The notes beneath the pieces are model-generated. The model saw only the letters and a list, made by a program, of their open reading frames with translations, searched no databases and was not told the DNA's origin. Made by a program: the position numbers and the translations under genes. A stretch of 64,000 nt of DNA from Bacteroidales bacterium. Lineage in GTDB: Bacteria; Bacteroidota; Bacteroidia; Bacteroidales; P3. The stretch lies in contig JAFVBB010000008.1 in the NCBI GenBank assembly GCA_017480225.1, positions 1-64,000 on the forward strand. The letters run 5' to 3'. Each line of letters opens with the position of its first letter. Within the stretch, counting starts at the first letter, position 1. This document shows, one piece after another, positions 45,672-62,690 of the stretch.

Positions 45672-46721
45672 ATGAGTATATTCAAAGACAAAATCCTGTT
45701 GATTACAGGCGGCACTGGCAGTTTCGGAAACGCAGTGCTTAATCGCTTTCTGAAGACAGACATTGGGGAGATACGCATTTTCTCGCGTGATGAAAAGAAA
45801 CAGGACGATATGCGCCACGACTTTCAGTCTCGTATGCCAGATGTGGCGCACAAGATAAAGTTCTGTATCGGCGACGTACGCAACCGTTCAACTCTGAAGT
45901 ATGCTATGCAGGGCGTTGACTATGTGTTTCATGCCGCTGCGCTGAAGCAGGTTCCCTCGTGCGAGTTCTTCCCTATGGAGGCCGTCAAGACAAATGTGAT
46001 TGGCACGGACAATACGCTGGATGCCGCCATTGAGGCTGGTGTAAAATGTGTAATCTGTCTCTCTACCGACAAGGCCGCTTATCCCATCAATGCAATGGGT
46101 ATCACTAAGGCTATTGAGGAAAAGATTGCTGTGGCCAAGAGTCGCTATAGTGGTGAGGCGAAAATCTGCTGTACTCGTTATGGAAACGTGATGTGTAGCC
46201 GTGGTTCTGTCATACCTCTTTGGATAGATCAGATACGTAATGGCAACCCCATTACACTGACGGAACCGAAGATGACACGTTTCATTATGTCACTTGAAGA
46301 GGCCGTTGATTTGGTGCTGTTCGCCTTTGAACATGGACAAAATGGCGACATTCTGGTACAGAAAGCTCCTGCTTGCACCATACAGACCCAAGCAGAAGCT
46401 GTGTGTGAGCTATTCGGTGGCAAGAAAGAGGAAATTAAGGTCATTGGCATACGCCATGGTGAGAAGATGTACGAAACGCTGCTCACCAAGGAGGAGTGCG
46501 CCAAGGCCGAGGACATGGGTAATTTCTACCGTGTGCCGGCCGACAACCGCGACCTCAATTACGACAAGTACTTCCGTGAGGGCGATGCTAAACGGGCTAC
46601 CATCGAGGAATTCAACAGCGACAATACCCGTCGGCTGAACCTTGAAGAGACGAAGGAGAAGATTGCGTCACTGGAATACATCCAGAATGAACTAAATGGG
46701 ATTCCTAATATCGTGAAGTAG
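45672..46721 (+). CDS. fnlA: UDP-GlcNAc 4,6-dehydratase/epimerase (FnlA/CapE type)
   Basis: A 349-residue extended SDR enzyme. It has the NAD-binding motif LLITGGTGSFGNAV, FHAAALKQVPSCEFFPMEAV, STDKAAYPINAMGITKA (the MxxxK active site typical of CapE) and a C-terminal region unlike simple FlaA1. It should start UDP-N-acetyl-L-fucosamine synthesis from UDP-GlcNAc. The next two genes supply the remaining steps, which supports this reading over a generic PglF-like dehydratase. The start at 45672 gives MSIFKDKILLITGG. Confidence 0.88.
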   Translation: MSIFKDKILLITGGTGSFGNAVLNRFLKTDIGEIRIFSRDEKKQDDMRHDFQSRMPDVAHKIKFCIGDVRNRSTLKYAMQGVDYVFHAAALKQVPSCEFFPMEAVKTNVIGTDNTLDAAIEAGVKCVICLSTDKAAYPINAMGITKAIEEKIAVAKSRYSGEAKICCTRYGNVMCSRGSVIPLWIDQIRNGNPITLTEPKMTRFIMSLEEAVDLVLFAFEHGQNGDILVQKAPACTIQTQAEAVCELFGGKKEEIKVIGIRHGEKMYETLLTKEECAKAEDMGNFYRVPADNRDLNYDKYFREGDAKRATIEEFNSDNTRRLNLEETKEKIASLEYIQNELNGIPNIVK

Positions 46722-46765
46722 GTGTCTGGAAAGAAATTACCAAGAATTAACCAAAAATATTGAGT

Positions 46766-47965
46766 ATGAATATCTTGGTTACTGGAGCGAAGGGGTTTGT
46801 GGGAAAAAACCTTTGCGCCACAATATATAATATAAGGGACGGGAAAGACCGCACGAGGCAGGGCCTAAAGATTGATGAGATCTTTGAGTATGACATTGAC
46901 ACCGATCCGTCGCTGCTCGACGAATATTGCCAGAAGGCAGACTTCGTGTTCAACCTTGCAGGTGTGAACCGCCCGCAGAACACGGAAGAGTTTATGCAGG
47001 GCAACTTCGGCTTTGCCTACACGTTGCTGGACACGCTGAAGAAACACGGCAACTGCTGCCCCGTCATGCTCAGCTCGTCGCAGCAGGCTTCGCTCACAGG
47101 TCGCTTCGGAAACAGCGAGTATGGACGCAGCAAGAAGGCTGGCGAAGACCTCTTCTTGCAATACCAGGAAGAGACAGGGGCAAGGGTCCTAATATATCGT
47201 TTCCCTAATCTATTCGGTAAGTGGTGCCGCCCCAACTATAACAGTGCAGTGGCTACGTTCTGCAACAACATTGCCAATGACCTGCCCATTCAGGTGAACG
47301 CCCCGAATGTGGAGCTTGAACTGCTCTACATTGATGACCTCGTTTCTGAAATGCTTGATGCACTTGAAGGTAAGGAGCATCGTTGTGAGTTTGACGGACT
47401 GGAGGTGCTTCCCAATGAAACAGGGGCTTACTGTTATTGCCCCATCACTCACAGAGTGATGTTGGGCCGCATCGTAGAACTGCTCCATCAGTTTGCCGAC
47501 CAGCCCAAGACGCTGCTCGTGCTGGAGATTCCCTTCAATTCATTTGAGAAGAAGCTATACAGCACATACCTCTCTTATCTTCCGAAGAAGAAGGTGGCTT
47601 TCCCCCTGAAGATGAACGTGGACGACCGTGGATCATTTACAGAACTGATTCACACGCTCAACTGCGGACAGGTGAGCATCAACATCTCGAAGCCGGGCAT
47701 CACCAAGGGGCAGCACTGGCATAATACGAAGTGGGAATTCTTCATTGTCGTTTCCGGTCACGGCCTCATTCAAGAGCGCAGGATTGGAAGCGACGAGGTG
47801 ATAGAGTTTGAGGTCAGCGGCGAACGGATTGAGGCCGTCCACATGCTCCCCGGATATACGCACAACATTATCAACCTCTCGGAGACCGAGAATTTAGTAA
47901 CCGTCATGTGGGCCAATGAACTGTTCAACCCACAACATCCCGATACATTCTATGAAACAGTTTAA
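46766..47965 (+). CDS. fnlB: bifunctional reductase/epimerase with cupin domain (FnlB/CapF type)
   Basis: A 399-residue protein. An N-terminal SDR reductase (NILVTGAKGFVGKNL, FNLAGVNRPQN, YGRSKKAGEDL) joins a C-terminal cupin domain from about residue 280. The cupin has PGITKGQHWHNTKWEFF with metal-binding His and Glu, and ends LPGYTHNIINL. CapF/FnlB epimerises and reduces the CapE product to UDP-6-deoxy-L-talosamine derivatives. The ATG at 46766 is used rather than a TTG two codons earlier. It overlaps the next gene by 14 nt. Confidence 0.9.
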   Translation: MNILVTGAKGFVGKNLCATIYNIRDGKDRTRQGLKIDEIFEYDIDTDPSLLDEYCQKADFVFNLAGVNRPQNTEEFMQGNFGFAYTLLDTLKKHGNCCPVMLSSSQQASLTGRFGNSEYGRSKKAGEDLFLQYQEETGARVLIYRFPNLFGKWCRPNYNSAVATFCNNIANDLPIQVNAPNVELELLYIDDLVSEMLDALEGKEHRCEFDGLEVLPNETGAYCYCPITHRVMLGRIVELLHQFADQPKTLLVLEIPFNSFEKKLYSTYLSYLPKKKVAFPLKMNVDDRGSFTELIHTLNCGQVSINISKPGITKGQHWHNTKWEFFIVVSGHGLIQERRIGSDEVIEFEVSGERIEAVHMLPGYTHNIINLSETENLVTVMWANELFNPQHPDTFYETV

Positions 47966-49112
47966 GAACAACGGACGGCTGAAGCTACTGATTATTGTGG
48001 GCACACGCCCGGAGATTATCCGACTGGCCGCCGTCATCAACAAGTGCCGGAAATATTTCGACTGCTTGCTGGCACATACAGGACAAAACTACGACTATAA
48101 CCTCAATGGCGTTTTCTTCAAGGACTTAAATCTGGCCGACCCCGACATATATATGGAGGCTGTAGGCAGTGACCTCGGCGAAACAATGGGCAACATCATT
48201 GCCAAGTCCTACCAACTGATGGTCGAGGTGAAGCCTGATGCCGTGCTGGTGCTGGGTGACACCAACTCATGCCTGAGTGTTATTGGAGCCAAGCGCCTGC
48301 ATATTCCCATTTTCCACATGGAGGCGGGTAACCGCTGCAAAGATGAGTGCCTGCCCGAAGAGACCAACCGACGCATCGTTGACATCATCAGCGACGTGAA
48401 CATGGCTTATAGTGAGCACGCCCGCCGCTATCTCGCCGACTGTGGCCTGCCGAAGGAACGCACCTACGTCACTGGTTCGCCCATGGCCGAGGTGCTCCAC
48501 CAGAACCTCGCAGAGATTGAGGCCTCGGATATCCACCAACGTTTAGGCTTGGAGAAGGGCAAATACATCCTGCTGTCGGCCCACCGCGAGGAGAATATCG
48601 ACATTGAGAAGAATTTCCTTTCGCTCTTCACCGCTGTCAACAAGATGGCAGAAAAGTACGACATGCCCATCCTGTACAGCTGCCACCCCCGCAGCCGCAA
48701 GCGTCTGGAGCAGTCGGGTTTCCAGCTCGACCACCGCGTCATACAGCATGAGCCGCTGGGTTTCCACGACTACAACTGCCTCCAGATGAATGCCTTCGCG
48801 GTTGTCAGCGACAGCGGCACACTGCCCGAAGAAAGCAGCTTCTTCACCAGCATCGGGAAGCCCTTCCCCGCCATCTGCATCCGCACCTCAACCGAGCGTC
48901 CCGAAGCCCTCGACAAGGCCTGCTTCTTCATCGCCGGCATTGACGAACACTCGCTGCTACAGGCCGTTGATACTGCCGTCACCATGACCCAGAACGGTGA
49001 CCACGGCATCCCCGTCCCCGACTACATCGAGGAAAATGTCTCAACAAAAGTAGTGAAAATCATCCAGAGCTATACGGGCATAGTGAACAAGATGGTTTGG
49101 AGAAAAAATTAA
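47952..49112 (+). CDS. fnlC: UDP-N-acetyl-L-pneumosamine/-glucosamine 2-epimerase (FnlC/CapG, WecB family)
   Basis: A 386-residue non-hydrolysing 2-epimerase. Family motifs are IIVGTRPEIIRLA, LLAHTGQNYDYN, VLGDTNSCL, FHMEAGNRCKDECLPEETNR, LLSAHREENIDIEKN and SDSGTLPEESSFF. As third gene after CapE/CapF homologues it should give UDP-N-acetyl-L-fucosamine. Without that context it could be read as WecB. The start at 47952 lies inside the previous gene. Confidence 0.9.
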   Translation: MKQFKNNGRLKLLIIVGTRPEIIRLAAVINKCRKYFDCLLAHTGQNYDYNLNGVFFKDLNLADPDIYMEAVGSDLGETMGNIIAKSYQLMVEVKPDAVLVLGDTNSCLSVIGAKRLHIPIFHMEAGNRCKDECLPEETNRRIVDIISDVNMAYSEHARRYLADCGLPKERTYVTGSPMAEVLHQNLAEIEASDIHQRLGLEKGKYILLSAHREENIDIEKNFLSLFTAVNKMAEKYDMPILYSCHPRSRKRLEQSGFQLDHRVIQHEPLGFHDYNCLQMNAFAVVSDSGTLPEESSFFTSIGKPFPAICIRTSTERPEALDKACFFIAGIDEHSLLQAVDTAVTMTQNGDHGIPVPDYIEENVSTKVVKIIQSYTGIVNKMVWRKN

Positions 49113-49158: not shown

Positions 49159-49977
49159 ATGAGGGAATTGACATTGAAGGAATTGCAGTTTTTTAGTCTT
49201 GACATCTTAAAAGATATACATGAATTCTGCATAAAGAACAATATCAGGTATTCTTTGGCTTACGGCACGCTTATAGGTGCAGTCAGACATAAAGGTTTCA
49301 TTCCTTGGGATGACGATATTGACATTATTATGCCCCGGCCCGACTATGATCTATTTGCTGCAATATACAAATCAGAAAAATATCTCTTTTCTTCTGCAGA
49401 ACATGACAGTGACTGCCTGATATCGTTTGGAAGGGTCTGTGATGCCAACAAGACTACTGTAAGGACTGCCATCCCTTGGCATAAGCGCACATACGGCGTA
49501 TGGATTGACGTGTTTCCTGTTGATGCTGCAGAAGACGATTTCGTGCAATTTACCAATCGGGTGCATAGGAATTCCAAGCTCCTTTTAGAATTACAGCATA
49601 GCCGCCGTGCGCTCGCACCAATCTCGACGGGAACAACCTTGTCTCTTCAAATAAAGCAATTTGCCCGTAAGATACTCTTTCTCAACGGAACTTTCACATC
49701 CAGCATTATCCGGGCAATCAACAAACGGGCAGAGCTTTATGAATATGGAACAACAAACCACTGGGGGCTTCTTTCTTTCAACTCATATAAGGAAAAGGAC
49801 TACCATGAAGCTAACCTTTTAGAGTCTGTCTGCCTTATGGATTTTGAGGATAGTAAGTTCTATGTAATGAGCGGATATGACGCTTATCTTAAACACCTCT
49901 ATGGAGATTATATGAAAATGCCTCCCATTGAGGAACAAAAGCCTAAGCAGTCCTATTTACGATTTTATTGGAAATGA
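49159..49977 (+). CDS. LicD family transferase 1
   Basis: A 272-residue LicD protein. The family core is [20 protein letters not shown] followed by [10 protein letters not shown], giving the Asp-rich metal site. WIDVFPVD is the second block, and [13 protein letters not shown] with a basic aromatic tail ends the protein. LicD enzymes transfer phosphocholine or other phospho-/phosphono-alcohols from CDP/CMP donors to sugars. No choline uptake or choline kinase gene is present, while a phosphonate pathway is, so a phosphonate donor is more likely here. The gene is AT-richer than its neighbours. Confidence 0.85.
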
Positions 49978-49980
49978 GCT

Positions 49981-50757
49981 ATGGAAAAGTTAACTTTAGA
50001 AGAATCAAAAACATACCAGTTAGGCATCCTTGACTCTATCGACACCTTTTGTAAATTAAATGGTATTCGGTATTCGATAGCTTATGGAACTTTACTTGGA
50101 GCAGTACGCCATCATGGCTTTATCCCCTGGGATGATGACATCGACATTGTGATGCCACGTGAGGACTACTCGCGTTTTGTTTCTCAATATCAGGACAATC
50201 ATTATGTCTTATTGACAGGCGACAAGATTGCCAACCATCTGCATGTTGTCGTGACTGACCCTTCGACATTCGTCGAGTTCAAACCAGGAACTTCAGATGC
50301 GCTCTTTTATAGAGGTGGTGTCTGGGTTGATGTGTTTCCTCTTGATTATGTTTCAAAAAACGAGGAAAAATTTGAATTACAGAAAAGGCAAATAGCCAAG
50401 CGGCGCATTTTGCAGCGTTACGGAGAAATATCACCTGTAAACTCGTCTGACGGGGGTATTAGAAAAGCATTTAAGCTTATCATTCACAAGTTCCTGTCAC
50501 TTCTTGTCGCATTAAATGGCAAGGCTTCATTGAAGTTGATGAAGAAATACAATGATGAGAATACTGGAAAGGTGGCTAATCTTGCCGTATGGTATCTGAA
50601 GACCAACAAGGCAGTTCCTTCAGAATGGTTCGAACAATATGTAACCCTTGATTTTGAAGGTAGAAAGTATCAGAGCATTAGCCACTATCATGATTACCTT
50701 GCAAGCTTGTATGGGGACTACATGAAATTACCCCCCCCCAGCCGAGCAAGTACCTAA
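49981..50757 (+). CDS. LicD family transferase 2, C-terminus altered by a C9 tract
   Basis: A 258-residue LicD protein as read, with [30 protein letters not shown] and WVDVFPLD. The frame enters a C9 run at 50731-50739, and the product then ends PPPSRAST. With eight C the frame would continue AEQVPKHSYTAYKLEK to a stop at 50789-50791, just before the PEP mutase gene. That tail resembles the tails of LicD 1 ([15 protein letters not shown]) and LicD 4 (KEQRITHHAFKVFWT). So the present sequence probably encodes a shortened, phase-shifted form. Confidence 0.85.
   Translation: MEKLTLEESKTYQLGILDSIDTFCKLNGIRYSIAYGTLLGAVRHHGFIPWDDDIDIVMPREDYSRFVSQYQDNHYVLLTGDKIANHLHVVVTDPSTFVEFKPGTSDALFYRGGVWVDVFPLDYVSKNEEKFELQKRQIAKRRILQRYGEISPVNSSDGGIRKAFKLIIHKFLSLLVALNGKASLKLMKKYNDENTGKVANLAVWYLKTNKAVPSEWFEQYVTLDFEGRKYQSISHYHDYLASLYGDYMKLPPPSRAST
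50731..50739 (+). repeat. C9 homopolymer at the 3' end of licD 2
   Basis: Nine C residues in the coding sequence just after the YGDYMKL motif; losing one C restores a family-like C-terminus ending at 50791. Confidence 0.9.
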
Positions 50758-50804: not shown

Positions 50805-52814
50805 ATGAAAGCAATGATTCTTAACAGTGGCCTTGGCCACCGTATGGGGGTTATCACGAAGGAGCATCCCAAATGTATGACGGAAATATCGTTCCGCAAC
50901 ACTATTCTGAGTAGGCAGCTTCGGCTGTTAGTCTCTTTTGGCGTTGATGAAATTGTAATGACCACTGGTTATTACGACAAAGTGTTAGTAGATTATTGCA
51001 ATGCGCTGCATCTGCCTGTGAAGTTCGCTTTTGTCAACAACCCAGAATATGCAACCACCAATTACATCTATAGCATCTGTTGCGCCAAGGAGCAGTTGAA
51101 GGACGATGACATTATTCTCATGCATGGCGACCTCGTGTTCGAAAGCCAGGTGCTTGAGGCCGTCATTGACAGCCCGGTAAGTTGCATGGCTGTCAGTAGC
51201 ACGCTCCCTTTGCCCGATAAAGATTTCAAGGCAGTCGTCAAGGACGGAAAGATTGAGAAGGTGGGCATTGAGTTCTTCGACAATGCCGTGGCTGCACAGC
51301 CTCTTTATAAGATGCTAAAAGAGGACTGGCTGGTATGGCTCCAGAGCATAGAGAAATTCTGTGAAAGCGGCAACCGAAAAGTTTATGCAGAGAATGCCTT
51401 TAATGAGGTATCTGCCAAGTGCAACGTTTATCCTTGTGATGTAAAAAATATGCTCTGCGCGGAGATTGACACGCCAGAAGATCTGGAGGTGGTCAGCAAA
51501 AAGGTGGCAGAAATCAACGAGCGCACGGTGTATATGTGCTTCAGCACAGAATATATCCACAGCGGCCACATGGCCATCATCAACAAGGCTCGCCGCCTTG
51601 GCCGTCTGATTGTTGGCGTGCTGAGTGACGAAGCAATATCCAGTTTCAAGCGCTATCCGTTGATTCCATACGAGGAGCGCAAGGCCCTGTTTGAAAACCT
51701 TGCAGGCGTGGAGCGTGTCGTTGAGCAGAAAACGCTCTCCTATAAAGAAAACCTCGAAACGTTACGTCCTGACTATGTGGTGCATGGCAACGACTGGTGT
51801 GAAGGCTTCCAGAAGCCCATCCGCCAGGAGGTGTGCGAGGTGTTGGCCGAGTATGGTGGCAAGCTGGTGGAGTATCCTTACAGCAATAATCCTATGTACA
51901 AGGAGCTGGATGCCAACCATCGCTCTGAGGCTTCCATGCCTGATGTGCGCCGTGGCCGTCTGCGTAAGCTCATCAATATGAAGGGCCTGGTAACTGCTAT
52001 GGAGGCTCATAGTGGTATCACCGGGTTAATTGTTGAGAATACCAAGGTGCTTCAGGATGGTAAAACCTACCAGTTTGATGCCATGTGGGTAAGTTCACTT
52101 TGCGACTCTACGGCTAAGGGCAAGCCCGACATTGAGTTGGTGGATATGACCAGCCGCTTCCGCACAATTGACGATATTATGGAGGTGACCACCAAGCCCA
52201 TCATCTTCGATGGTGATACGGGTGGCTTGACCGAGCACTTTGTCTATACCGTGCGCTCGCTGGAGCGAATGGGCGTGAGCATGGTCATCATCGAGGATAA
52301 GACTGGGCTGAAGAAAAACAGCCTGTTTGGTACCGAGGTGAAGCAGACACAGGCCAGCATACCCGATTTCTGCGAGAAGATACGTGCCGGTAAGAAAGCC
52401 CAGAAGACGAGGGAGTTTATGATTTGTGCCCGCATTGAGAGCCTGATTCTGGAGCGAGGCATGGAAGATGCCTTAGAACGAGCCTTTGCCTTCAGCGAGG
52501 CTGGTGCCGATGCCATTATGATTCACTCTCGAAAGAAAGACCCGGCTGAAATATTTGAGTTTGTGGAGAAGTTCCGTCAGAAGAACAGCACCACTCCCAT
52601 CGTGGTTGTACCCACATCGTTCAACACCGTCACAGAGTGGGAGTTCAAGGAGCGTGGCGTAAACGTGGTCATCTATGCCAACCAACTCACCCGCACCGGA
52701 TTCCCCGCCATGCAGGATGCAGCGCGCACCATACTGCAGAACCACCGCGCCAAGGAGTGCGACGACAAGTGCATGTCCATCAAAGAGATTATCACCTTAA
52801 TACCCGAGCAATAA
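50805..52814 (+). CDS. trifunctional NTP-transferase / cytidylyltransferase / phosphoenolpyruvate mutase
   Basis: A 669-residue three-domain protein. Residues 1-235: a nucleotidyltransferase with LNSGLGHRMGVITKEHPKCM and a LMHGDLVF metal motif, like phosphonate-activating PntC or LicC enzymes. Residues about 240-370: a TagD-like cytidylyltransferase fold with STEYIHSGHMAIIN (H-x-G-H) and DYVVHGNDW. Residues about 380-669: PEP mutase with the signature EDKTGLKKNSLFG near 496. PEP mutase makes phosphonopyruvate from PEP; the other domains probably activate the final phosphonate as a CMP ester. TAATG overlap with the decarboxylase gene. Which nucleotidyltransferase domain is active is uncertain. 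Confidence 0.9.
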   Translation: MKAMILNSGLGHRMGVITKEHPKCMTEISFRNTILSRQLRLLVSFGVDEIVMTTGYYDKVLVDYCNALHLPVKFAFVNNPEYATTNYIYSICCAKEQLKDDDIILMHGDLVFESQVLEAVIDSPVSCMAVSSTLPLPDKDFKAVVKDGKIEKVGIEFFDNAVAAQPLYKMLKEDWLVWLQSIEKFCESGNRKVYAENAFNEVSAKCNVYPCDVKNMLCAEIDTPEDLEVVSKKVAEINERTVYMCFSTEYIHSGHMAIINKARRLGRLIVGVLSDEAISSFKRYPLIPYEERKALFENLAGVERVVEQKTLSYKENLETLRPDYVVHGNDWCEGFQKPIRQEVCEVLAEYGGKLVEYPYSNNPMYKELDANHRSEASMPDVRRGRLRKLINMKGLVTAMEAHSGITGLIVENTKVLQDGKTYQFDAMWVSSLCDSTAKGKPDIELVDMTSRFRTIDDIMEVTTKPIIFDGDTGGLTEHFVYTVRSLERMGVSMVIIEDKTGLKKNSLFGTEVKQTQASIPDFCEKIRAGKKAQKTREFMICARIESLILERGMEDALERAFAFSEAGADAIMIHSRKKDPAEIFEFVEKFRQKNSTTPIVVVPTSFNTVTEWEFKERGVNVVIYANQLTRTGFPAMQDAARTILQNHRAKECDDKCMSIKEIITLIPEQ

Positions 52815-53938
52815 TGATTCGTCCAGAATATTTTATTGAGAAGCTGAGAGAGAACGGCATAGACTGTTTTGCCGGCGTGCCCGATAGTCTGCTAAAGAAT
52901 ATCTGTGCTTACATCACCGACCATTGTGATGCTCAGCATAACATCATTGCAGCCAACGAGGGCGCTGCCGTAGGAATAGCTGCCGGGCACTATCTTGCCA
53001 CGGGCCAGCCAGCCTGCGTGTATATGCAGAATAGTGGCGAGGGCAACATCATCAACCCGCTTGCCTCGCTGACAGACCCCGAAGTCTATCATATTCCTGT
53101 GCTGCTGCTCATTGGCTGGCGGGGGCGTCCCGGCGTGCACGATGAGCCGCAGCATGTGAAACAGGGAAAGATAACCACGGGGTTGCTCAACACGATGGGT
53201 GTCAACTTTGACGTACTGAGCAAGGACGAAGATAAGGCTGAGAAGCAGATTGCCAAGGCCGTTGCAGCCCTGCAGCGCAAAGAGGTCTATGCTCTGGTGA
53301 TTGAGAAGGATACCTTTGATGCCTATACACTGCAGAACGTAGAGCAGAACGATCTCACGTTATCTCGCGAAGAAGCCATCCAGACCGTAGCTGCAGCCCT
53401 TGACGAGAAGGGCTGCATTGTCTCAACGACGGGTATGATCAGCAGAGAGCTTTTTGAATACCGCGCCGCGATGAACCAAGGCCATGAGCGCGATTTCCTG
53501 ACCGTAGGCTCTATGGGGCATGCCTCGCAGATAGCCCTTGGCATCGCTATGGCGCAGCCTGGCCGCCGCGTGTGGTGCTTCGACGGCGACGGCGCGGCCA
53601 TTATGCATTTGGGCAGCATGGCCATCGTGGCCAGCAAAGCCCCTAAGAACTATGTCCATGTGGTGTTCAACAACGGTGCACACGACAGCGTGGGGGGCCA
53701 GCCTACAGTAGGACTGAAGATAGATCTTCCAGCCATTGCCAAGGCTGTAGGCTACAAGCAGTACTATAGCTGTGAAACGAAAGAATACCTCCAGGAGCTT
53801 CTGGAAAAAGTGAAGACACAGGAAGGCCCCATCCTCTTACAGGTGTGTGTAAAGAAAGGCAACCGTAAAGACCTTGGCCGTCCAACAACTACTCCCATTC
53901 AGAACAAAGAGGCTTTGATGGCTTTCTTGAAAGATTAA
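52814..53938 (+). CDS. phosphonopyruvate decarboxylase
   Basis: A 374-residue ThDP-dependent enzyme. N-terminal FAGVPDSLLKNICAYI and the catalytic Glu in IAANEGAAVGIAAG mark the pyrimidine domain. FDGDGAAIMHLGSMAIVAS with downstream VVFNNGAHDSVGGQPT is the ThDP/Mg motif (GDG...NN). It converts phosphonopyruvate to phosphonoacetaldehyde, which pulls the unfavourable PEP mutase reaction forward. Start at 52814 directly on the PEP mutase stop. Confidence 0.93.
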   Translation: MIRPEYFIEKLRENGIDCFAGVPDSLLKNICAYITDHCDAQHNIIAANEGAAVGIAAGHYLATGQPACVYMQNSGEGNIINPLASLTDPEVYHIPVLLLIGWRGRPGVHDEPQHVKQGKITTGLLNTMGVNFDVLSKDEDKAEKQIAKAVAALQRKEVYALVIEKDTFDAYTLQNVEQNDLTLSREEAIQTVAAALDEKGCIVSTTGMISRELFEYRAAMNQGHERDFLTVGSMGHASQIALGIAMAQPGRRVWCFDGDGAAIMHLGSMAIVASKAPKNYVHVVFNNGAHDSVGGQPTVGLKIDLPAIAKAVGYKQYYSCETKEYLQELLEKVKTQEGPILLQVCVKKGNRKDLGRPTTTPIQNKEALMAFLKD

Positions 53939-53964
53939 ATCTCCATGATTTCTGTGTGTCAATT

Positions 53965-55059
53965 ATGAAGCAAATAATATATCGTGGCATAGAATACCTG
54001 TCAAAAGCCTTGGAAGATTCTTCTAAGGTTTTGTTGGTATGTGATGCGTCTTTCCCCTTTCTCAGTATCAAAGATGACATAGAGAACATGGGCGTGCCCT
54101 ATGTGGTCTTCAGCGACTTTACGCCTAACCCGCTCTACGAGGATGTCTGCAAGGGTGTTGACTTGTTCAACATCACAAAGTGCGACACCATCCTTGCAGT
54201 GGGCGGCGGCAGTTCTTTGGATGTAGCCAAGTGCATCAAGCTCTATTGTAAAATGCAGAAGGGGAAGCTCTATCTGGAACAAGACTATGGAGATACTGGC
54301 GTAAAACTCATTGCCATTCCTACTACTGCCGGCACAGGCTCCGAGTCTACCCGCTATGCTGTCATCTATTACAAAGGGAAGAAACAGAGCGTCACGCATG
54401 ACAGCATCATTCCCGACATTGCCATTTTGGAACCGAAGGTGCTGAAAACACTTCCGTTATACCAGAAGAAATGCACCATGCTTGATGCCTATTGCCATGG
54501 CATTGAGTCTTGGTGGAGTGTCAACAGTACCGAGGAAAGCAAAAAACTATCGAAACAAGCTGTAGAGACCATCACCAAGTGGTGGCGTGAATACATCTTC
54601 AACAATTCTGACGTGGCAGCAGAGCAAATCATGCAAGCAGCAAATCTTGCAGGACAGGCCATCTGCATAACACAGACAACTGCCCCCCATGCCTTCAGCT
54701 ATAAGATTACCTCGCTGTATAAGCTCCCTCATGGGCATGCTGTGGCAGTTTGCCTTCCTGAGATTTGGTCGTTTATGAATGCGGGGCGAGGTCACTGCAT
54801 AGATAAGCGTGGAGAAGAATATCTGAAAACTATCTATACCGAGATAGCGCATGCCATGGGGTGTTCAACACCAATAGAAGCCATAAAATGTTTCCGCGCG
54901 ATGCTATCGGAGATGGGCGTGAATAATCCCCAATCAAACGATAGGGCAAGTGAATTGGACATTCTTTCCCACTCGGTTAACCCTGTGCGGTTAAAGAATA
55001 GCCCCATGGAATTAGATGAAGGAACAATAAAACAGCTCTATGGCGTAATCCTACAATAG
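53965..55059 (+). CDS. Fe-type alcohol dehydrogenase, probable phosphonoacetaldehyde reductase
   Basis: A 364-residue group III iron-dependent alcohol dehydrogenase. It has AVGGGSSLDVAKCIK (NAD loop), IPTTAGTGSESTRYAV, and metal ligands in LDAYCHGIES, APHAFSY and LPHGHAVAV. In phosphonate loci such enzymes (PhpC-like) reduce phosphonoacetaldehyde to 2-hydroxyethylphosphonate. There is no aminotransferase in the cluster, so hydroxyethylphosphonate rather than aminoethylphosphonate is the expected product. Chosen start is the ATG at 53965. Confidence 0.85.
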   Translation: MKQIIYRGIEYLSKALEDSSKVLLVCDASFPFLSIKDDIENMGVPYVVFSDFTPNPLYEDVCKGVDLFNITKCDTILAVGGGSSLDVAKCIKLYCKMQKGKLYLEQDYGDTGVKLIAIPTTAGTGSESTRYAVIYYKGKKQSVTHDSIIPDIAILEPKVLKTLPLYQKKCTMLDAYCHGIESWWSVNSTEESKKLSKQAVETITKWWREYIFNNSDVAAEQIMQAANLAGQAICITQTTAPHAFSYKITSLYKLPHGHAVAVCLPEIWSFMNAGRGHCIDKRGEEYLKTIYTEIAHAMGCSTPIEAIKCFRAMLSEMGVNNPQSNDRASELDILSHSVNPVRLKNSPMELDEGTIKQLYGVILQ

Positions 55060-55070
55060 CGAACTACGAT

Positions 55071-55967
55071 ATGATCCGATTTGAAGAGCTGCTGAACAAG
55101 ATGTACTTGATGAAAGATGTTTTCATTCCTATGGATGACAAACAGTTTCATCAAGTACAACAAACAGGATTCTCCATGCTTTTGACCATTCAGGATTTCT
55201 GTAAGAGCCACAACATAACGATGATGCTGGGCTATGGCTCTGTGCTTGGTGCTGTACGCCATCGCGGCTTTGTTCCTTGGGACGACGACGTAGATATTCT
55301 GATGCCGAGAAAAGACTATATGCGTTTTCTATCTTTATGTGAAAGTGGACTACCCAGGCACCTGAAGGTCTATTCGCCATACACATCGCTGGGACCAGAA
55401 GTACGCTATACCAAAATCATTGACGATGAAACGCGGATTATTTCGCCAGTGGGGGGGGGGAGTTATAACAAAGTGTGTGTGGATGTGTTTCCACTCGAAA
55501 ACTATGACGAACGCTGGCTAAGGAGAAAATTGAAGTGGGCAGTTTACATGATACTGTCAACCGCTGCCACCACGTGCAGGCTCTGGTATGACCGCAAGCG
55601 CGACACCGACTACAAATTCACCATGAAGCTGACTCGGCAAGGAACCTTTGAATATTACATCCGCCTTGGCGTTGGATTCTGTTTTTCATTTCTTTCCTAC
55701 AAGCGGTGGCTCAAGATTGCTGACAAGTGGCTCATCTGTAACAAAGAAACAAAGCAGGTGTACATACCCTCCATATTCATTAATACCAACCCTATCGACA
55801 AAGACGTAATGATGCCTGTCTCGGTCGGTCAATTTAATGGGCGAGAGGTGTTCCTACCCAATAAGCCCGAGCAATATTTGGAATTTTCATATGGCGACTG
55901 GCGTCAGCTCCCCCCAGAGGAAAAGCGCCGTCAGCACTTGTTCTTCAGAAAGCAACAGTCATCCTGA
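55071..55967 (+). CDS. LicD family transferase 3, with an in-frame G10 tract
   Basis: A 298-residue LicD protein: LGYGSVLGAVRHRGFVPW and DDDVDILMPRKDY form the catalytic core and VCVDVFPLENYD the second block. A G10 run at 55451-55460 encodes SPVGGGSYN between them and is in frame, so the gene reads as ON. A one-base change would truncate the protein before the second block. It follows the alcohol dehydrogenase by 11 nt. Of the four LicD proteins it is the most divergent in its C-terminal half (membrane-proximal-looking aromatic segment YYIRLGVGFCFSFLSY). Confidence 0.85.
   Translation: MIRFEELLNKMYLMKDVFIPMDDKQFHQVQQTGFSMLLTIQDFCKSHNITMMLGYGSVLGAVRHRGFVPWDDDVDILMPRKDYMRFLSLCESGLPRHLKVYSPYTSLGPEVRYTKIIDDETRIISPVGGGSYNKVCVDVFPLENYDERWLRRKLKWAVYMILSTAATTCRLWYDRKRDTDYKFTMKLTRQGTFEYYIRLGVGFCFSFLSYKRWLKIADKWLICNKETKQVYIPSIFINTNPIDKDVMMPVSVGQFNGREVFLPNKPEQYLEFSYGDWRQLPPEEKRRQHLFFRKQQSS
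55451..55460 (+). repeat. G10 homopolymer inside licD 3
   Basis: Ten G residues in the coding sequence at codons 127-130, flanked by T and A. In-frame as sequenced. Confidence 0.92.
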
Positions 55968-55982
55968 TATTACGAGATTATA

Positions 55983-57386
55983 ATGCAAAATATACTTTTC
56001 AGATTTAAGCAACTGAAGGGAACGTTGGCTTTCTTTAGTTCCGAAGGTTTGGCAAAGGGGCTGCACTGGGTGTTGCTGCTGTTGCTGTTCTTCTTGTCAA
56101 AACCGCATCCGGAGAACTACGGAATGTTGGCTCTGCTTATTGCCTTTGAGCGCATGGCGGAAGTGATGCTTGACTTCGGACAGAAGCGTGTCGTCTATCG
56201 TTTCTTTGACAAAAGCACACACGACAACCGATATTTTCTTTCCACCACCTTCACGGCGTGGATGCTGCTCATCGCAGTCATCCTGCTATCGCTTGGGCTG
56301 GGCATTTGGGCTTCGGGCTGCGATACCTTCTTCAACATCAAGACGTCTCTACCGCTGTATATATGCATGGCCAACCTTGGCGTGGGAAAGGTTTATGCGT
56401 TTGTTACCTATATCCTCCGTATAGATAAGCGCATCAAGTCATACGCTGGCATGCGGCTGATATTCAGTATTGTGCAGTTTGCAGCTTCTCTGCTTGTTTC
56501 TATAGTATTTGACGACGTAAGTCTGGGGTTTGTATTAGGGACATTCCTGGCCTATGTCATTTCCACCATCTGCAAGATAGGAGTGTTCAAGGAGTTTGCC
56601 ATCAGTTTCCTTTTTGATTGGAATATTTTCAAGCGCAACATGCTCTATGGCTATCCATTGGTGATACAGCAGCTTATCTCGAACATCGGCCCCAATATTG
56701 ATAAGTTCTTCCTTGCAGAATTAGTGTCACTGACAGAAGTTGGTCACTACAACTTTGTAGTCACAATACTATCTGCTTTCACATTCTTGTTCTCTATTTG
56801 CACGTCCTACTTCGAGCCAATGCTTTTCAAAATAAGGAAAGATCCGAAACGATTCCTCATAACCAACCAGACCTTTATCTATACATGCATCGGTTTTGCA
56901 GCAGTCGTGGTGCTTGCCACTTCTGGGGTGTTCCAACTGATTGACAAGGCAGGCGAAACACCTCTATATCTTATGCTCTCTGCTGCCTACATTATGTTGC
57001 CAGTTTATTTCTACAACACCTACGTATATATGACTTCCGACAAAAATGGCTATGTAGTGTTTTTTTCTGCAATAGCGGTTTTGGCTGACCTCGCTGCCAA
57101 CTATATCCTTATCAAGTCTTATGGGGTGATGGGAGCAGCTATGGCGCAGTGTATTTATACCTTCGTGCTCAGCTGGCTGTCCTACGCGTTCATGGAATGG
57201 AAGTACCCTCACTATCGCAGTAATCACAACCGCCTCTTGGGCATCATTATGACATTGCCTGTAGTTGCCTGTTTTGTACTCAATGCCCCCCTTGTCCTGC
57301 TGGCAGAATATTTGGCTATCACGTTTTTTGCCAGCTACTTCATTACAAAGAACAGGCACGAAATGTTTGCCGTAGTTGAAGACTAA
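55983..57386 (+). CDS. wzx: Wzx-type oligosaccharide flippase
   Basis: A 467-residue polytopic protein with about 12 membrane helices and no signal peptide. The MATE/PST-type layout and internal segments such as YGYPLVIQQLISNIGPNIDK and LAELVSLTEVGHYNFVVTIL fit lipid-linked oligosaccharide flippases. It should move the undecaprenyl-linked repeat unit to the periplasmic face for polymerisation by Wzy, encoded two genes later. Confidence 0.87.
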   Translation: MQNILFRFKQLKGTLAFFSSEGLAKGLHWVLLLLLFFLSKPHPENYGMLALLIAFERMAEVMLDFGQKRVVYRFFDKSTHDNRYFLSTTFTAWMLLIAVILLSLGLGIWASGCDTFFNIKTSLPLYICMANLGVGKVYAFVTYILRIDKRIKSYAGMRLIFSIVQFAASLLVSIVFDDVSLGFVLGTFLAYVISTICKIGVFKEFAISFLFDWNIFKRNMLYGYPLVIQQLISNIGPNIDKFFLAELVSLTEVGHYNFVVTILSAFTFLFSICTSYFEPMLFKIRKDPKRFLITNQTFIYTCIGFAAVVVLATSGVFQLIDKAGETPLYLMLSAAYIMLPVYFYNTYVYMTSDKNGYVVFFSAIAVLADLAANYILIKSYGVMGAAMAQCIYTFVLSWLSYAFMEWKYPHYRSNHNRLLGIIMTLPVVACFVLNAPLVLLAEYLAITFFASYFITKNRHEMFAVVED

Positions 57387-57395
57387 AGAAAAAAC

Positions 57396-58199
57396 ATGAA
57401 AGAAATAAATTCAACAGGAGAACTTAAACAGATAGGACTTGAAATACTGTTGTCTGTACATCAGTTCTGCGAAGACCATCATATTATGTATTCTCTGGCC
57501 TGTGGAACGCTCATTGGAGCCGTAAGGCACCAAGGTTTCATACCATGGGACGATGATGTTGATATCTACATGTTGCGCAATGACTATAACCGATTCCTTG
57601 ACATTTATCATGATGAAACGGGACACTATCAGGCCATATCGTTGGAAACGTCGAAAGACTGGAAACAACCGTACGCTAAAGTCTTCGACACTCATACGCT
57701 GTTAATTGAGCAGTCTAACACAAATGTTGATGGTGTTGGATTTGGTATTGATGTGTTTCCTATTGATGCAGCTCCTGATTCTTTAGCAGACTGGCAGAAG
57801 TACGAAAAGCGCAGAGTCTTACTGCAAAGACTTTTTGGCATGAAGAAAATGGTATGGAGAGAAGGCCGCTCCTTAGCCAAGAACATATTCTTATACATGA
57901 TGAAATTTTTCTTGCTACCTTTCTCTATGCGGTCCATGGCTAAGATGATTGACAGGTATGCAAAGAAATACAACGATATGTCCACATCCTACCTTGCAGA
58001 GAGCTGTTTTGGAAATCCGAACAACCGTTTTGCCCATGCAGATTTCTCAACTTCTGTTGACATATATTTTCAAGGGCATCAGTTGAAAGCAATGAATGGC
58101 TTTGAAAACTATCTCCGAGCTTTCTATGGGGATTACATGAAACTGCCCCCTAAAGAGCAACGAATAACGCATCATGCATTCAAGGTTTTTTGGACGTAA
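57396..58199 (+). CDS. LicD family transferase 4
   Basis: A 267-residue LicD protein with [42 protein letters not shown] and the C-terminal YGDYMKLPPKEQ block. The first block has MLRND where the other copies have MPR-type sequence. No long homopolymer (only C5 in the end block), so unlike copies 2 and 3 it looks stably expressed. It sits between wzx and wzy, inside the same operon. Confidence 0.85.
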   Translation: MKEINSTGELKQIGLEILLSVHQFCEDHHIMYSLACGTLIGAVRHQGFIPWDDDVDIYMLRNDYNRFLDIYHDETGHYQAISLETSKDWKQPYAKVFDTHTLLIEQSNTNVDGVGFGIDVFPIDAAPDSLADWQKYEKRRVLLQRLFGMKKMVWREGRSLAKNIFLYMMKFFLLPFSMRSMAKMIDRYAKKYNDMSTSYLAESCFGNPNNRFAHADFSTSVDIYFQGHQLKAMNGFENYLRAFYGDYMKLPPKEQRITHHAFKVFWT

Positions 58200-58212
58200 A
58201 TATGAAACGACA

Positions 58213-59529
58213 ATGGAACAAGTTAAATCATTAAATATAATAAAGTATTCCGTCTTCTTCTTGTCCTTCGTTTTGATGATCTTGCCGGGGATTACAAATA
58301 AAGAACTGGCTGATTTCCACATGTATCTGTTAGGTATATTGTTTTTGACAGAAATTAGACAAGTAAAAGCAATTTCATTGTATTCTGTTTGGATTGCAGG
58401 ATTCATATATATCATATTGTCTGAGATGATACTAAGCCCAGAAGGAGATGATTTTAACTGGACTGTACGCTATCTTTTGTCGGCAAATAATGTTGTATTA
58501 ATAGGCTATTCAATAGCAGCAAATAAACAATTGTACAAATATAAGAAAACAAATTTCTCTACAAGATCGCAGTTCTTCCCGTTTTTGTTAGCTTTATTGA
58601 CAATCTTTTATTTGTACAACATGTTTCCAAAGGTTTCTATGAGTTATTTTTATGGACGACAATTAGTGTCAACGATGGGAAGTGGTACTCTCAAAGGCTC
58701 GTTGAATAGTGCTTTGGGATTAATTTTGCCAGCATTGATAGCTTATTATGTTGTTCACATAAAAAAAAGTTCCAAATGGGTGGCTTTAGCATTTGTTCTC
58801 CCTATTTTCTTATTTCTAATTATACTATCAACCCGTTTTAAATTATTATTCTCTGTTATCCCATTTTTCTTAGTAAGCGGATTTCTAAATTTTGATAAAG
58901 TCAATCTGAAGTCAATGGTTCTTCTTCTTTTTGCTGTAGTTGTTCTTAGTTTGATTTCACAATTAACAAAGATAAATAGAAATGAATCTTACCAGAATCG
59001 CTGGGAAAATCTCTCAGAAAGGAAAATGGTAAATGGCAATTTGGCTGAAATTATAGCTAATCAATGTTCCCCAGAAGGTTGTGTAGCAATGACACGATTG
59101 GCTGAAAGATATTTTGAAGATCATGAACATACGTACGGTAAGAGTATAGGCTTCATTACATATTTCTGGGTACCACGAGCTATTTGGCCTGACAAGCCTA
59201 CACAGGTAGACCACTGGTTGCCAAGATACTTTAATCCGAATATGGCTGATACGGCTTCAACAGCGTCAGGGTTTACAGGAGAGTTAAGGGCTGATTTTGG
59301 ATATTTATCTTACTTTTTCTTGTTTCTGCTGGGCGTTCTTCTAAAGCGTTGTAATTATTATCTGATGTTTTATAACTATGGACGATCTCCATGTTACGAG
59401 TCAATCTATGCTTCACTCCTTATTCCAACAACCTTCTTCAGCTTACGAGGTCTAAACCTTTCCATCACAACGTATATTTGTGCAGTTTTGTTACTTTTGT
59501 TAATATCAAAATTTATTGGTGTCCGATAA
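58213..59529 (+). CDS. wzy: Wzy-type repeat-unit polymerase, C-terminus clipped by an IS
   Basis: A 438-residue polytopic membrane protein with about ten helices and a large periplasmic loop (about residues 255-345). That loop ends with PRAIWPDKPTQVDHWLP and then FTGELRADFGYLSYF, typical of oligosaccharide repeat-unit polymerases. Strongly AT-rich, as usual for wzy. The last codons IGVR and the stop are supplied by the inserted IS at 59514. Removing the IS and one copy of the 9-bp duplication would give KSS and a TAA, so only a few residues changed. Start at the ATG at 58213, 14 nt after licD 4. Confidence 0.83.
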   Translation: MEQVKSLNIIKYSVFFLSFVLMILPGITNKELADFHMYLLGILFLTEIRQVKAISLYSVWIAGFIYIILSEMILSPEGDDFNWTVRYLLSANNVVLIGYSIAANKQLYKYKKTNFSTRSQFFPFLLALLTIFYLYNMFPKVSMSYFYGRQLVSTMGSGTLKGSLNSALGLILPALIAYYVVHIKKSSKWVALAFVLPIFLFLIILSTRFKLLFSVIPFFLVSGFLNFDKVNLKSMVLLLFAVVVLSLISQLTKINRNESYQNRWENLSERKMVNGNLAEIIANQCSPEGCVAMTRLAERYFEDHEHTYGKSIGFITYFWVPRAIWPDKPTQVDHWLPRYFNPNMADTASTASGFTGELRADFGYLSYFFLFLLGVLLKRCNYYLMFYNYGRSPCYESIYASLLIPTTFFSLRGLNLSITTYICAVLLLLLISKFIGVR

Positions 59530-59622: not shown

Positions 59623-60821
59623 TCAAAACTGTAAAACCAGCTGCCCTGTGTCAGTCTCGCATCGTTCAGCGTTGATCCTTTCCCATGTCCGTTCCGGATT
59701 TTCAAGGAAACTGAATATGTCGACGTAGTATATCAGCACTTGCCTGACGGCGGTGACGAGGTTTGAGAATGCCCAATGATGTTTGACTTTACGTTTCACC
59801 ACCGTGAGCAACAGGTTGGCTATCAAACATACCCATACCTGCGATTCTATTGCATTGACGCTTTCACCGTAGAAATATTTTAGTGGGAAATTCTGTTTGA
59901 GTTGCTTAAAGAGTACTTCTATCTGCCATCGGTCGTCATAAATAGCAATGAATTCCTGCTCGGACAGGTCGAAGTTGTTGGTCAATAGTGTGGCATAGCT
60001 CCCATCTTTGTGCCAATATTGTATCATGCGAGCTGTATGAGTGACATCGCCCTTGGTAAACTGTACTTTTCTGGTGCTCATCTCCACCTGTGCGTCAGGA
60101 GTTATCAGCATTGTAGACTCAAGGGTGTGAAAAGTTAGATTTTTCTTCATTTTGGTAACATAGAACACATGTTCCTGTGTAAGCCTCTCCAACTCCGAGT
60201 AGTCGATGTAAGCTCTGTCCATGGCAATGAAAGAGCCTTCAGGAAGATGAAGATTTTTTAGTGTACCTATGTCGTGAGTGGCAGCGGAAGTGAAGTTCAC
60301 AAAATGCTGAGCCCATTCGTCATACTTGATGACACAATGAGCCTTGATGCCGCCTTTTTTCTTGCCGTGCTTCGGGTTACGACCTGCCCCTTTCAAGATG
60401 TTTGAAAATAATGTTATTGTCGTAGAATCAATAATATACAATTGCCTCTGTGTCTCAGTGAGCTGGCTGTCCGATAAAAGATGCTTGTACTGCTTGTATA
60501 GTTGATTGTAAATATCCCTGAAGAACAGGCTACTGCGACGATTGTTTGCATCAGAGAGGGTGCTACGCTTAATCATGTAGTTCACTCCAAGGTGTTGGAG
60601 TTTGTTTGCCTCGGCCAGCATGCCTACAACAATCTCTCTCAGAGTGTCAAAACGCATCAATACAGCAAACAAAAAAGCCACAAAATAGGTTTAACCATCC
60701 AGTTTTTTACGTACCTGTTGTATCCTCCATCGGAACTTATCTTTCTGATTTTCTCGCGGTTTACGAGATTTAACAATTGAACATAGACTGGCTGTCCGAT
60801 AAAATGTGTATCTTTGCTCAT
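59623..60821 (-). pseudogene. IS4-family transposase, frameshift and nonsense codon
   Basis: Starting at the ATG at 60821 the N-terminus reads MSKDTHFIGQPVYVQLLNLV, then NREKIRKISSDGGYNRYVK. It then shifts frame at an A6 run near 60708 and meets a TAA at 60691-60693. From 60681 the frame is open to 59623, with a DDE domain (YIIDSTTITLFSN, IKAHCVIKYDEWAQHF, FIAMDRAYIDYSEL, IYDDRWQIEVLFKQLKQNFPLKYF). The N-terminal part resembles DUF4372, typical of this IS4 subgroup. The element is probably no longer autonomous. Confidence 0.8.
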
Positions 60822-60856: not shown

Positions 60857-60984
60857 ATCAAAAGGGCTGAAATCACAAAATGGTTACAGCCCTAATCTTT
60901 TGCTATCCCGTGAAACTTTTATCGGACACCAATAATCAAAATTTAAAAGTTCCTAACATAACATCAAGAAATATTCATACTATT

Positions 60985-61015
60985 TTTGTCAATTCAAAAT
61001 TAAATTGTACTTTTG
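60985..61015 (+). promoter_or_regulatory. promoter of the 61033-62690 gene pair
   Basis: TTTG (60985-60988), 19-nt spacer, TACTTTTG (61008-61015): same architecture as the tRNA promoters. The ATG follows 17 nt after the -7 element, so the leader is very short. Confidence 0.8.
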
Positions 61016-61032
61016 CAAAACAAAAACAGAAG

Positions 61033-61467
61033 ATGGCACACGTATTTTCACAGCATACAATGACGAACGGCAAATTTGGCCCGTCTCCCAACGGCCATTA
61101 CTATATGCCAGCTCAATATCACAACCCCAATGCACCCAAGCGTAGCGACAAGACACGCTGGGCACTATCAAAGGATCAGCAATATGAGGTGTTTGAGATT
61201 GCCGATACACCTATAGGTGACAGGCAGTGCTGGATGAATGATGACCAAAGTGGACTTTACGGAATGCTGGATGGATGTGAGTATGTGCTGGGGAAAGACC
61301 ATGGCGAACGACTGGCTTTCTTCCCACAAACAATGAATGTCAATGACCCGTGGCATGGCTATCCCATAGACAGCTTGGACTTGGGTGACGACCTGATAGA
61401 ATTTTGGCTTCAGCAGCAGCTCATTTCGAAGATAACTTACGGACGGCTAATTAGACACGAACTATGA
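61033..61467 (+). CDS. hypothetical protein, 144 aa, first of an unrecognised pair
   Basis: Not recognised. Soluble and rich in aromatic, Gly, Asp and His residues (NGKFGPSPNGHYYMPAQYHN, RQCWMNDDQSGLYGMLDG). There is no signal peptide. It starts 17 nt after a strong promoter and overlaps the next gene by 4 nt (ATGA). It lies in the middle of the polysaccharide locus, yet is not an obvious sugar enzyme. Confidence 0.65.
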   Translation: MAHVFSQHTMTNGKFGPSPNGHYYMPAQYHNPNAPKRSDKTRWALSKDQQYEVFEIADTPIGDRQCWMNDDQSGLYGMLDGCEYVLGKDHGERLAFFPQTMNVNDPWHGYPIDSLDLGDDLIEFWLQQQLISKITYGRLIRHEL

Positions 61468-62690
61468 ACACGCTAAACTTTACCATCAAAGCAAAAACCG
61501 TAGACAGCTATCTGTACGGTGGCTACCTCTTTCTCTTGATGGAGGATGGACGGATATTGTATGTGTCTTACCATAGAATGATTCACATGCTGTGCGCGAA
61601 ATATCCGCAGTTTGAGCGTCTCATAAAACTGGCCTTCCTTCACAATGAATATTTCAAGAGCAAGTCAGTACAGCTGATTCTTGGCATTGAAGAACTGAAA
61701 AATGCAGTAAAGGATTTGTGGAACAAAGCCGCCAAGGAAGTAGTCTTTGAAGTCGATTTCAACGACATTGAGGAGTATTGCCATTCTATGGGAACATGGA
61801 ACAGTCTGCCACTTGATGTCTATATGTACGACTTGCGCATGTATATTGCCAGCAAGGAGGGCGTGATGGAGTCGAGACTGAATCCTGATTTCAACGATAA
61901 ATACTATCGTCTGCGACCCACTCGCTTTGAGAAGTGTTTTGACTCAAAGGTGGTCTCGCTCAGTGCTCGCGCTGGCAAAGTTGTGCTGTCGGCAGATAGA
62001 GAGGGGCTCTTCTATGCCGATGCACTTGTTGAGAACCAGCGTGTGCGAGTCAGCGACAACAGCAATGTGCCCGGTCGTTCGCTGCGTACAGGCTGGAGCG
62101 ACTTCGACGTGATTAACTATGAATCGGCCAGGCAGTTCCGCTACCTTGCTAACGAGACGGCCAACACCGACAGACTTTCTTCTGACAGGTTCCGCTTTGG
62201 AGACAAGATAGAGCGCAAGGAGATTACGAGTTTTGCCACTGCCACTTTTGAGATGGCCGATATGATGGAACATGCGAGCATCGACAAAGAACAAATTCGT
62301 TTCTGTTTCAACAGTAAAGGACGCAGCTTCTTTGTGATGAATGACGGCTCTTTTGTGAACATCAAAATCAAGAAAACAGACGATGCTCCCATCAAGTACT
62401 CATCGGTTTCCAGACAATTGCCGCAGCTTGGCAATTCTGGTGGCGTAGCGAGTCCATTGAAAGCCGCCATTGTTCCTAATGGTTGCGTGGTGGAATTCTT
62501 CGACAAAGTGGTGCTTTACCAAAGTGGTGAGGCACAGGTGTTGGAGCATAACCCAGTCTACAGCATACGAACCTACATGGGTTCAAGAAATTACACAGAC
62601 ATCGTAACTGTTACGAAAGAAGATGCGGTCTCTTTCCATTCGGTAGATGTGTTCAACACCATTAACTCTACAAGAATGTTCCCTGTATGA
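61464..62690 (+). CDS. hypothetical protein, 408 aa, second of an unrecognised pair
   Basis: Not recognised. No signal peptide or membrane helix. The N-terminal 60 residues are strand-rich (SYLYGGYLFLLMEDGRILYVSY). From about residue 170 the protein shows repeated strand pairs ending in G-x-x-x-x-x-D or N-x-x-x-V-x-x patterns (VVLSADREGLFYAD, FFVMNDGSFVNIKI, CVVEFFDKVVLYQSG), suggestive of a beta-propeller. The middle contains RSLRTGWSDFDVIN. A scaffold or binding role is possible, but there is no evidence for a specific function. Confidence 0.65.
   Translation: MNTLNFTIKAKTVDSYLYGGYLFLLMEDGRILYVSYHRMIHMLCAKYPQFERLIKLAFLHNEYFKSKSVQLILGIEELKNAVKDLWNKAAKEVVFEVDFNDIEEYCHSMGTWNSLPLDVYMYDLRMYIASKEGVMESRLNPDFNDKYYRLRPTRFEKCFDSKVVSLSARAGKVVLSADREGLFYADALVENQRVRVSDNSNVPGRSLRTGWSDFDVINYESARQFRYLANETANTDRLSSDRFRFGDKIERKEITSFATATFEMADMMEHASIDKEQIRFCFNSKGRSFFVMNDGSFVNIKIKKTDDAPIKYSSVSRQLPQLGNSGGVASPLKAAIVPNGCVVEFFDKVVLYQSGEAQVLEHNPVYSIRTYMGSRNYTDIVTVTKEDAVSFHSVDVFNTINSTRMFPV

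Follow-up and report, generated by a model that had tools for sequence, protein, structure and literature searches.

A triple-fusion phosphoenolpyruvate mutase in a capsule-type locus of a Bacteroidales bacterium: a probable route to CMP-activated 2-hydroxyethylphosphonate

The stretch of DNA analyzed here (the window) comprises positions 1–64,000 of the 112-kb contig JAFVBB010000008.1 from a Bacteroidales assembly of 2.05 Mb (GCA_017480225.1; 97.6% complete) and carries, inside a capsule-type locus, a 669-aa fusion of two nucleotidyltransferase domains (PF12804 and PF01467) with a phosphoenolpyruvate (PEP) mutase, followed by a phosphonopyruvate decarboxylase and an Fe-type alcohol dehydrogenase (ADH), with four LicD-type transferase genes around them. 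This operon quite probably makes cytidine monophosphate (CMP)-activated 2-hydroxyethylphosphonate (HEP) for a surface polysaccharide by means of the PF12804 domain, with one or two LicD proteins acting as the transferases. The C-terminal domain of the fusion would convert PEP to phosphonopyruvate, the decarboxylase would produce phosphonoacetaldehyde, the dehydrogenase would turn the latter into HEP, and the N-terminal LicC/PntC-like PF12804 domain would form CMP-HEP, a role in which it would have displaced the resident Fom1-like domain (PF01467); the latter may persist with a structural or regulatory function. HEP would then be transferred from CMP to a repeat unit, probably containing N-acetylfucosamine (FucNAc), by one or two LicD proteins (best candidates at 49981 and 57396), and the remaining two more likely draw on the cytidine diphosphate (CDP)-linked donor of a TagD-Gfo/aminotransferase module located just past the window. 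We infer the reactions, the division of labor and the polysaccharide from gene content, domain make-up, motif patterns, co-occurrence and trees.

The open reading frames (ORFs) and the Pfam and NCBIfam matches agreed with the gene content given in a preliminary description of this DNA, i.e., the fusion, the decarboxylase, the dehydrogenase and the four LicD genes, and all were found at the positions named there. In the fusion (50805–52814, plus strand, as for the other window genes named below unless stated otherwise), Pfam placed PF12804 at aa 3–122, PF01467 at aa 251–343 and PF13714 at aa 386–644. Its LicC/PntC-like nucleotidyltransferase domain occupies 50805–51509, the Fom1-like cytidylyltransferase domain 51522–51893 and the PEP mutase domain 51960–52811, the last scoring 406.3 bits with TIGR02320 (cut-off 319.55) and having the motif EDKTGLKKNS (EDKxxxxxNS). 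The ATG of the decarboxylase (52814–53938; TIGR03297, 512.2 bits versus a cut-off of 312.5) shares one base with the fusion stop codon TAA. The dehydrogenase (53956–55059; PF00465 and PF25137), a presumed phosphonoacetaldehyde reductase, starts either from GTG at 53956 or from ATG at 53965 and has the residue set Asp177/His181/His245/His259, which we take to be its metal ligands. For the first 380 residues of the fusion, the nearest named record among the matches listed belonged to an uncultured Prevotella (92% identity).

HEP as the cassette product is well supported by the genomic context. The analysis covered 56 further PEP-mutase loci (38 from the same family and 18 from the order), read by similarity search over up to 20 kb each, and 80 loci of named records that match the two N-terminal domains, the best 80 of at least 519 stretches encoding a relative. 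Two loci (L102 and L112) were second fetches of the L048 and L045 contigs; hence, the 85 triple-fusion loci correspond to 83 distinct ones. The ADH gene was present within 6 kb in 77 of the 83 (79/85 with the duplicates), the decarboxylase in 75 and both in 74, while a transaminase for 2-aminoethylphosphonate (AEP) stood beside the triple fusion only once. The 52 loci with a two-domain PF01467-mutase fusion were sharply divided: 39 had the ADH, nine the AEP transaminase, none had both, and four had neither (L049, L054, L060 and L098, some on short contigs). Since the two enzymes exclude each other there, they probably stand for alternative ways of converting phosphonoacetaldehyde; the triple fusion is associated with the ADH, as expected from the earlier proposal of HEP instead of AEP. 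The gene order was PEP mutase–decarboxylase–ADH in 42 of the 44 Bacteroidota triples (the other two incomplete) and PEP mutase–ADH–decarboxylase in 29 of the 38 from Bacillota (two other orders, seven incomplete), with the phylum taken from record titles and one record unplaced; because the order differs between the phyla, the linkage of the three genes has survived reshuffling. Among the triples lacking the ADH, L132, L142 and L147 reached contig ends.

Several loci deviated in their organization. In L115 and L137 the decarboxylase and ADH were read as a single protein of 736–747 aa, L126 and L159 had a further PntC-like neighbor of the triple fusion, and L100 (6283–7875) encoded a reverse fusion with the PEP mutase ahead of a PF12804-like domain. 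A 380-aa PF12804-PF01467 protein without the mutase part was encoded in L161 (10001–11140). The sole mixed case was a Mogibacterium metagenome-assembled genome (L152:10001–14250), in which the triple fusion was followed by the ADH and then by the AEP transaminase, while the decarboxylase was not found. The presumed metal-ligand His in the ADH pattern LDAxCHxIE was replaced by Gln in 33 of 39 dehydrogenases from two-domain loci and in 51 of 77 from triple loci; 18 triples, the window among them, had His, and the pattern was unmatched in 14 (6 + 8).

Both nucleotidyltransferase domains of the preliminary description are present in the fusion, but only one has its motifs whole, which had been overlooked. 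In the ADH-type two-domain loci, the Fom1-like domain had HPGH and G[IF]SS[TS] in 39/39 and Asp at position 74 in 38/39; PntC queries found a PF12804 cytidylyltransferase partner in none of these 39 loci, and only one of 36 genes behind their cassettes matched PF00483/PF12804. The nine AEP-type loci all had an adjacent PF12804 PntC, and their resident domain had lost the second His of the motif, a catalytic residue (HPGL in eight, HPGI in one). In the triples the GISST motif was absent from all 85, and position 74 was Ser in 83/83, as it was in the nine AEP-type loci. In the window, GISST is replaced by NPMYK (51888–51902), and the match of the domain to 5x3d, presumably the Fom1 domain (the database entry is labeled just as a 160-aa PEP mutase chain), gave 136 bits over 121 aa and ended just before the GISST site. 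Of the four loci with neither enzyme, L049 (a 10-kb contig) also had HPGL, and the remaining three kept both motifs. The resident domain is thus motif-damaged wherever a PF12804 partner is present, i.e., in all triples and all AEP-type loci, and differently each time, so that the LicC-like PF12804 domain of the fusion probably makes CMP-HEP. We lean, with some reserve, toward a wider interpretation, in which PF12804 replaced PF01467 as the HEP cytidylyltransferase within one polypeptide, giving rise to a one-protein HEP-tailoring family of gut and rumen Bacteroidota and Bacillota, and in which a parallel replacement with a different motif loss took place in the AEP loci.

The PF12804 domain of the triples retains the GLG-R-x8-PK signature, HGD (85/85) and EID, while at the HGD site the PntC proteins had Glu-Ser-Asp in 7/7 aligned (of nine found). 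By sequence the closest match was LicC (46.7 bits), followed by PntC (38.2 bits). The domain was modeled separately (pLDDT 90.5), because the fold search with the full fusion gave only mutase/isocitrate-lyase-type matches among those listed; the predicted fold matched LicC (TM 0.80) and also inositol-1-phosphate cytidylyltransferase and PntC (TM 0.82–0.85). Glu104 and Glu196 of PntC have been placed at the AEP amine (Rice, 2019; PMC6697681). The equivalent of Glu104 is His107 (51123–51125 in the window) in all 85 triples and Asp105 in LicC; a hydroxyl replacing the amine would fit a His in this place. Compared to the published PntC signature, GXG(T/S)RX4-8PK (Rice, 2019; PMC6697681), the window has GLGHR followed by eight residues and PK, with His at the T/S site, where some of its kin have Ser or Thr.

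The four LicD genes (49159–49977, 49981–50757, 55071–55967 and 57396–58199) matched PF04991 with 121–151 bits (cut-off 22.6) and were the only such matches in the whole assembly. The proposed link between LicD and the phosphonate was upheld in the ADH-type two-domain loci, where the gene right after the cassette was a LicD in 23/36 and a PF04464-type transferase in 8/36 (3/39 loci gave no gene), but such genes were less frequent beside the triples. The idea that all four LicDs carry HEP was weakened, because the locus continues with its own CDP-donor module and because the kin of two LicDs come from genomes in which no PEP mutase was matched. LicD 49159 grouped with L190_10078 (support 99/91) and less firmly with L188_246 (94/80), and LicD 55071, although it sits directly behind the ADH (55059/55071), with L190_430 (100/99). 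L188 and L190 are loci of genomes G038 and G159 (approximately 80% and 93% complete), both of which carry the aminotransferase discussed below, G159 together with the TagD-Gfo fusion. In contrast, LicD 49981 grouped with the HEP-type locus L091 (95/86) and LicD 57396 with one HEP-type and one mixed locus (98/86). Use of the LicD tree for donor assignment in general was abandoned, since beyond these few pairs the labels clustered no better than chance.

A number of observations weigh against one or another part of this interpretation. Downstream sequence was present in L138, L160 (3–4 kb in both) and L161, yet no ADH was found, and in L152 a transaminase does stand next to the triple fusion. 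The window dehydrogenase scored 145.6 bits with the phosphonate-linked family TIGR03405 (PsrA), below its cut-off of 423.7. Among the 74 triple loci with ADH and decarboxylase, the gene right after the cassette was a LicD in 10/62 and PF04464-type in 6/62, and the gene right before it in 14/54 and 4/54, respectively (over-long upstream ORFs of L137 and L167 were dropped from 56); within 10 kb, either type was found in 48/83 triples by a less sensitive search. Around LicD 49159, the larger set with support (12 rows, 100/98) included seven HEP-only rows, clustering of the locus labels in the LicD tree was not significant (HEP-only: 45 of 500 shuffles were as low), and the donor assignment depends on three LicDs from loci without PEP mutase, which is a pointer, not proof. 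Glu196 of PntC is retained in the PF12804 domain of the fusion. In the tree of mutase domains the triples sit on a long stem, for which the tree program flagged long-branch joins with L098. Finally, both His of the PF01467 domain are retained in 85/85 triples (HxGH in 84, HSAH in one; HSGH in the window), as are 46 of the 72 columns with the highest conservation in HEP-type loci. The domain is not decaying fast either: the mean identity among triples was 0.73 for PF01467, 0.84 for the mutase and 0.70 for PF12804 (3000/3403 pairs), compared to 0.80 and 0.79 for PF01467 and mutase in the two-domain loci. The domain therefore probably retains some role and may still work.

This continuing constraint, together with the presence of four LicDs in one locus, is what speaks for both domains being active, with PF01467 making CMP-HEP by a rebuilt loop, PF12804 activating a second phosphonate or phospho-alcohol, and several LicDs using several donors. 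We consider this rather unlikely in view of the loss of GISST and Asp74 in the triples, as opposed to their retention in ADH-type two-domain loci, and no third gene was constantly linked to the fusion among the query-matched genes and direct neighbors.

Beyond base 64,000 the locus continues for approximately 8 kb. This part encodes a glycosyltransferase, a TarF-like transferase of the CDP-glycerol type (PF04464, 274 bits) and a class-V aminotransferase, followed by a TagD-type cytidylyltransferase fused to an oxidoreductase (Gfo/Idh) and then by an epimerase, a PF14907 protein and a starter enzyme resembling WecA/TagO. Thus, the statement that no aminotransferase is present was uncontradicted inside the window, but one lies 2.3 kb past its end in the same gene run. 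If it aminated phosphonoacetaldehyde, the product would be AEP and the PF12804 domain an ordinary PntC. Its best NCBIfam match was indeed PhnW-AepZ, albeit with 143.8 bits against a cut-off of 360.8, and its closest solved relative, 3f0h, is titled just "aminotransferase". It occurred in six of 190 family genomes, four of which had no PEP mutase match (two of those 76–80% complete); the remaining two were G122, with the mutase on another contig, and the window's own genome. The TagD-Gfo fusion adjoined it or was within about 2 kb in G000, G122, G032, G177 and G159, while in G038 the contig ended first. Moreover, L099 had both a relative of it (472 bits) and a separate PntC-AEPT matching the Treponema enzyme at 904 bits. 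Because of this company, its occurrence in genomes lacking a PEP mutase match and the co-occurrence in L099, the aminotransferase most likely belongs to another CDP-donor module and is probably not an AEP transaminase; with His in place of PntC Glu104 in addition, an AEP-producing locus appears very unlikely. The genome-wide check proposed earlier gave no AEP transaminase (TIGR03301) over the cut-off, the best score being that of this same protein, and no match to choline kinase (PF01633), so that both AEP and choline as the source for the LicDs were rejected.

Least probable of all is that HEP is made for a small molecule or lipid instead of the capsule: CMP-HEP is an intermediate of fosfomycin biosynthesis, formed by Fom1 (Rice, 2019; PMC6697681), but the setting here is one of flippase, polymerase, glycosyltransferase and LicD genes, and a methyltransferase of the fosfomycin type was not seen among the genes inspected near the cassette, although none was specifically searched for. 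The flippase of this setting is Wzx-like (55983–57386; PF01943), as described before, while the Wzy-like polymerase (58174–59529) is weak, matching TIGR04370 with 29 bits, below its cut-off of 40. Upstream of the LicDs are a nucleotide-sugar dehydratase/epimerase (45645–46721; PF02719), a protein with epimerase and PF14667 domain matches (46760–47965) and a WecB-type UDP-GlcNAc 2-epimerase (47916–49112; TIGR00236 over the cut-off), which we take to be FnlA-like, FnlB/CapF-like and FnlC-like, respectively. A group 1 glycosyltransferase occupies 62809–63933, and past the window the locus extends to approximately base 71,700 of the contig. Two DDE transposases (PF01609) are on the minus strand, one at the edge of the capsule locus (44012–44884) and one inside it (59623–60681); between the latter and the glycosyltransferase are two adjoining ORFs (60880–62690; 195 and 408 aa) without Pfam matches.

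A second HEP-type cassette, missed in the preliminary description, was found on the same contig some 50 kb away (102,970–106,474). It consists of a 434-aa PF01467-PEP mutase, a decarboxylase and an Fe-ADH, and its PF01467 domain matched 5x3d with 202 bits over 135 residues with GISST intact. Downstream are a PF04464-type transferase (24 bits), a family 2 glycosyltransferase and an amine-oxidase-like flavoprotein (L006:4970–12081, equal to C20:102970–110081).

In the tree of 134 mutase domains (two duplicates and two short rows left out; quick method, no bootstrap), the 81 triples formed one clade (SH-aLRT 100). It was nested in a broader group (99) to which one unknown and nine HEP loci of the two-domain type, from other Bacteroidales families, also belonged; eight AEP-type loci of the window's genus formed a separate clade among HEP loci. 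Bacillota and Bacteroidota triples were interleaved, many forks being weak, which suggests that the triple fusion moved between phyla. It was rare in the phylum (one of 395 genomes drawn, the window's own) and patchy in the family (four of 190: the own genome, G028, G107 and G127); many of the 80 record titles named rumen or gut samples. In AEP-type loci of this genus, PntC formed the C-terminal part of proteins of 581–591 aa. In L067 (11391–13157) the N-terminal part was LPG_synthase_TM (PF03706); six further loci were assigned to this type from protein length and the place of PntC within it.

The triple fusion itself is already known: 42 of 1485 PEP mutases were PF12804-PF01467-mutase fusions (Rice, 2019; PMC6697681). 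This source gives AEP as the substrate of PntC and HEP as that of Fom1, and it anticipates PntC enzymes with other phosphonate substrates. The Pnt clusters described there likewise combine PEP mutase, decarboxylase, PF12804 and/or PF01467 fusions and LicD-like transferases, but, unlike in the window locus, the characterized enzymes use AEP and accompany an AEP transaminase. Its main text does not contain the term "alcohol dehydrogenase", and the parts consulted do not mention a lost motif in the triple fusions. Titles and abstract beginnings of the open-license literature on HEP polysaccharides, PEP mutase with LicD, phosphonates of Prevotella, rumen or gut, and Fom1 relatives contained no other mention of the fusion. 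The loss of GISST in the triples versus its retention in the ADH-type two-domain loci seems to be new, as does the loss of a catalytic His instead in the AEP-type loci with their PF12804 enzyme. Fom1 shares the PF01467-mutase domain order, but the window fusion differs by the extra PF12804, the lost GISST and the capsule setting, so that the second cassette is the true look-alike. The LicC/LicD phosphocholine system is similar in the LicC-like fold and the LicD transferases, except that here these go with a phosphonate pathway. PntC-AEPT of Treponema denticola (6pd1/6pd2) has a similar PF12804 domain (19–20% identity in the fold alignment), fused, however, to a transaminase instead of a PEP mutase.

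Cell-surface phosphonates are predicted to be common, but structures are available for few of them and hardly any transfer steps have been described (Rice, 2019; PMC6697681). The interpretation given here predicts that surface glycans of gut and rumen anaerobes carry HEP and not AEP, and the triple fusion together with the Fe-ADH may serve as a marker for finding such loci. Xylanibacter ruminicola D31d is a named strain with two copies, its triple-fusion loci (L103 and L104) being located on two contigs.

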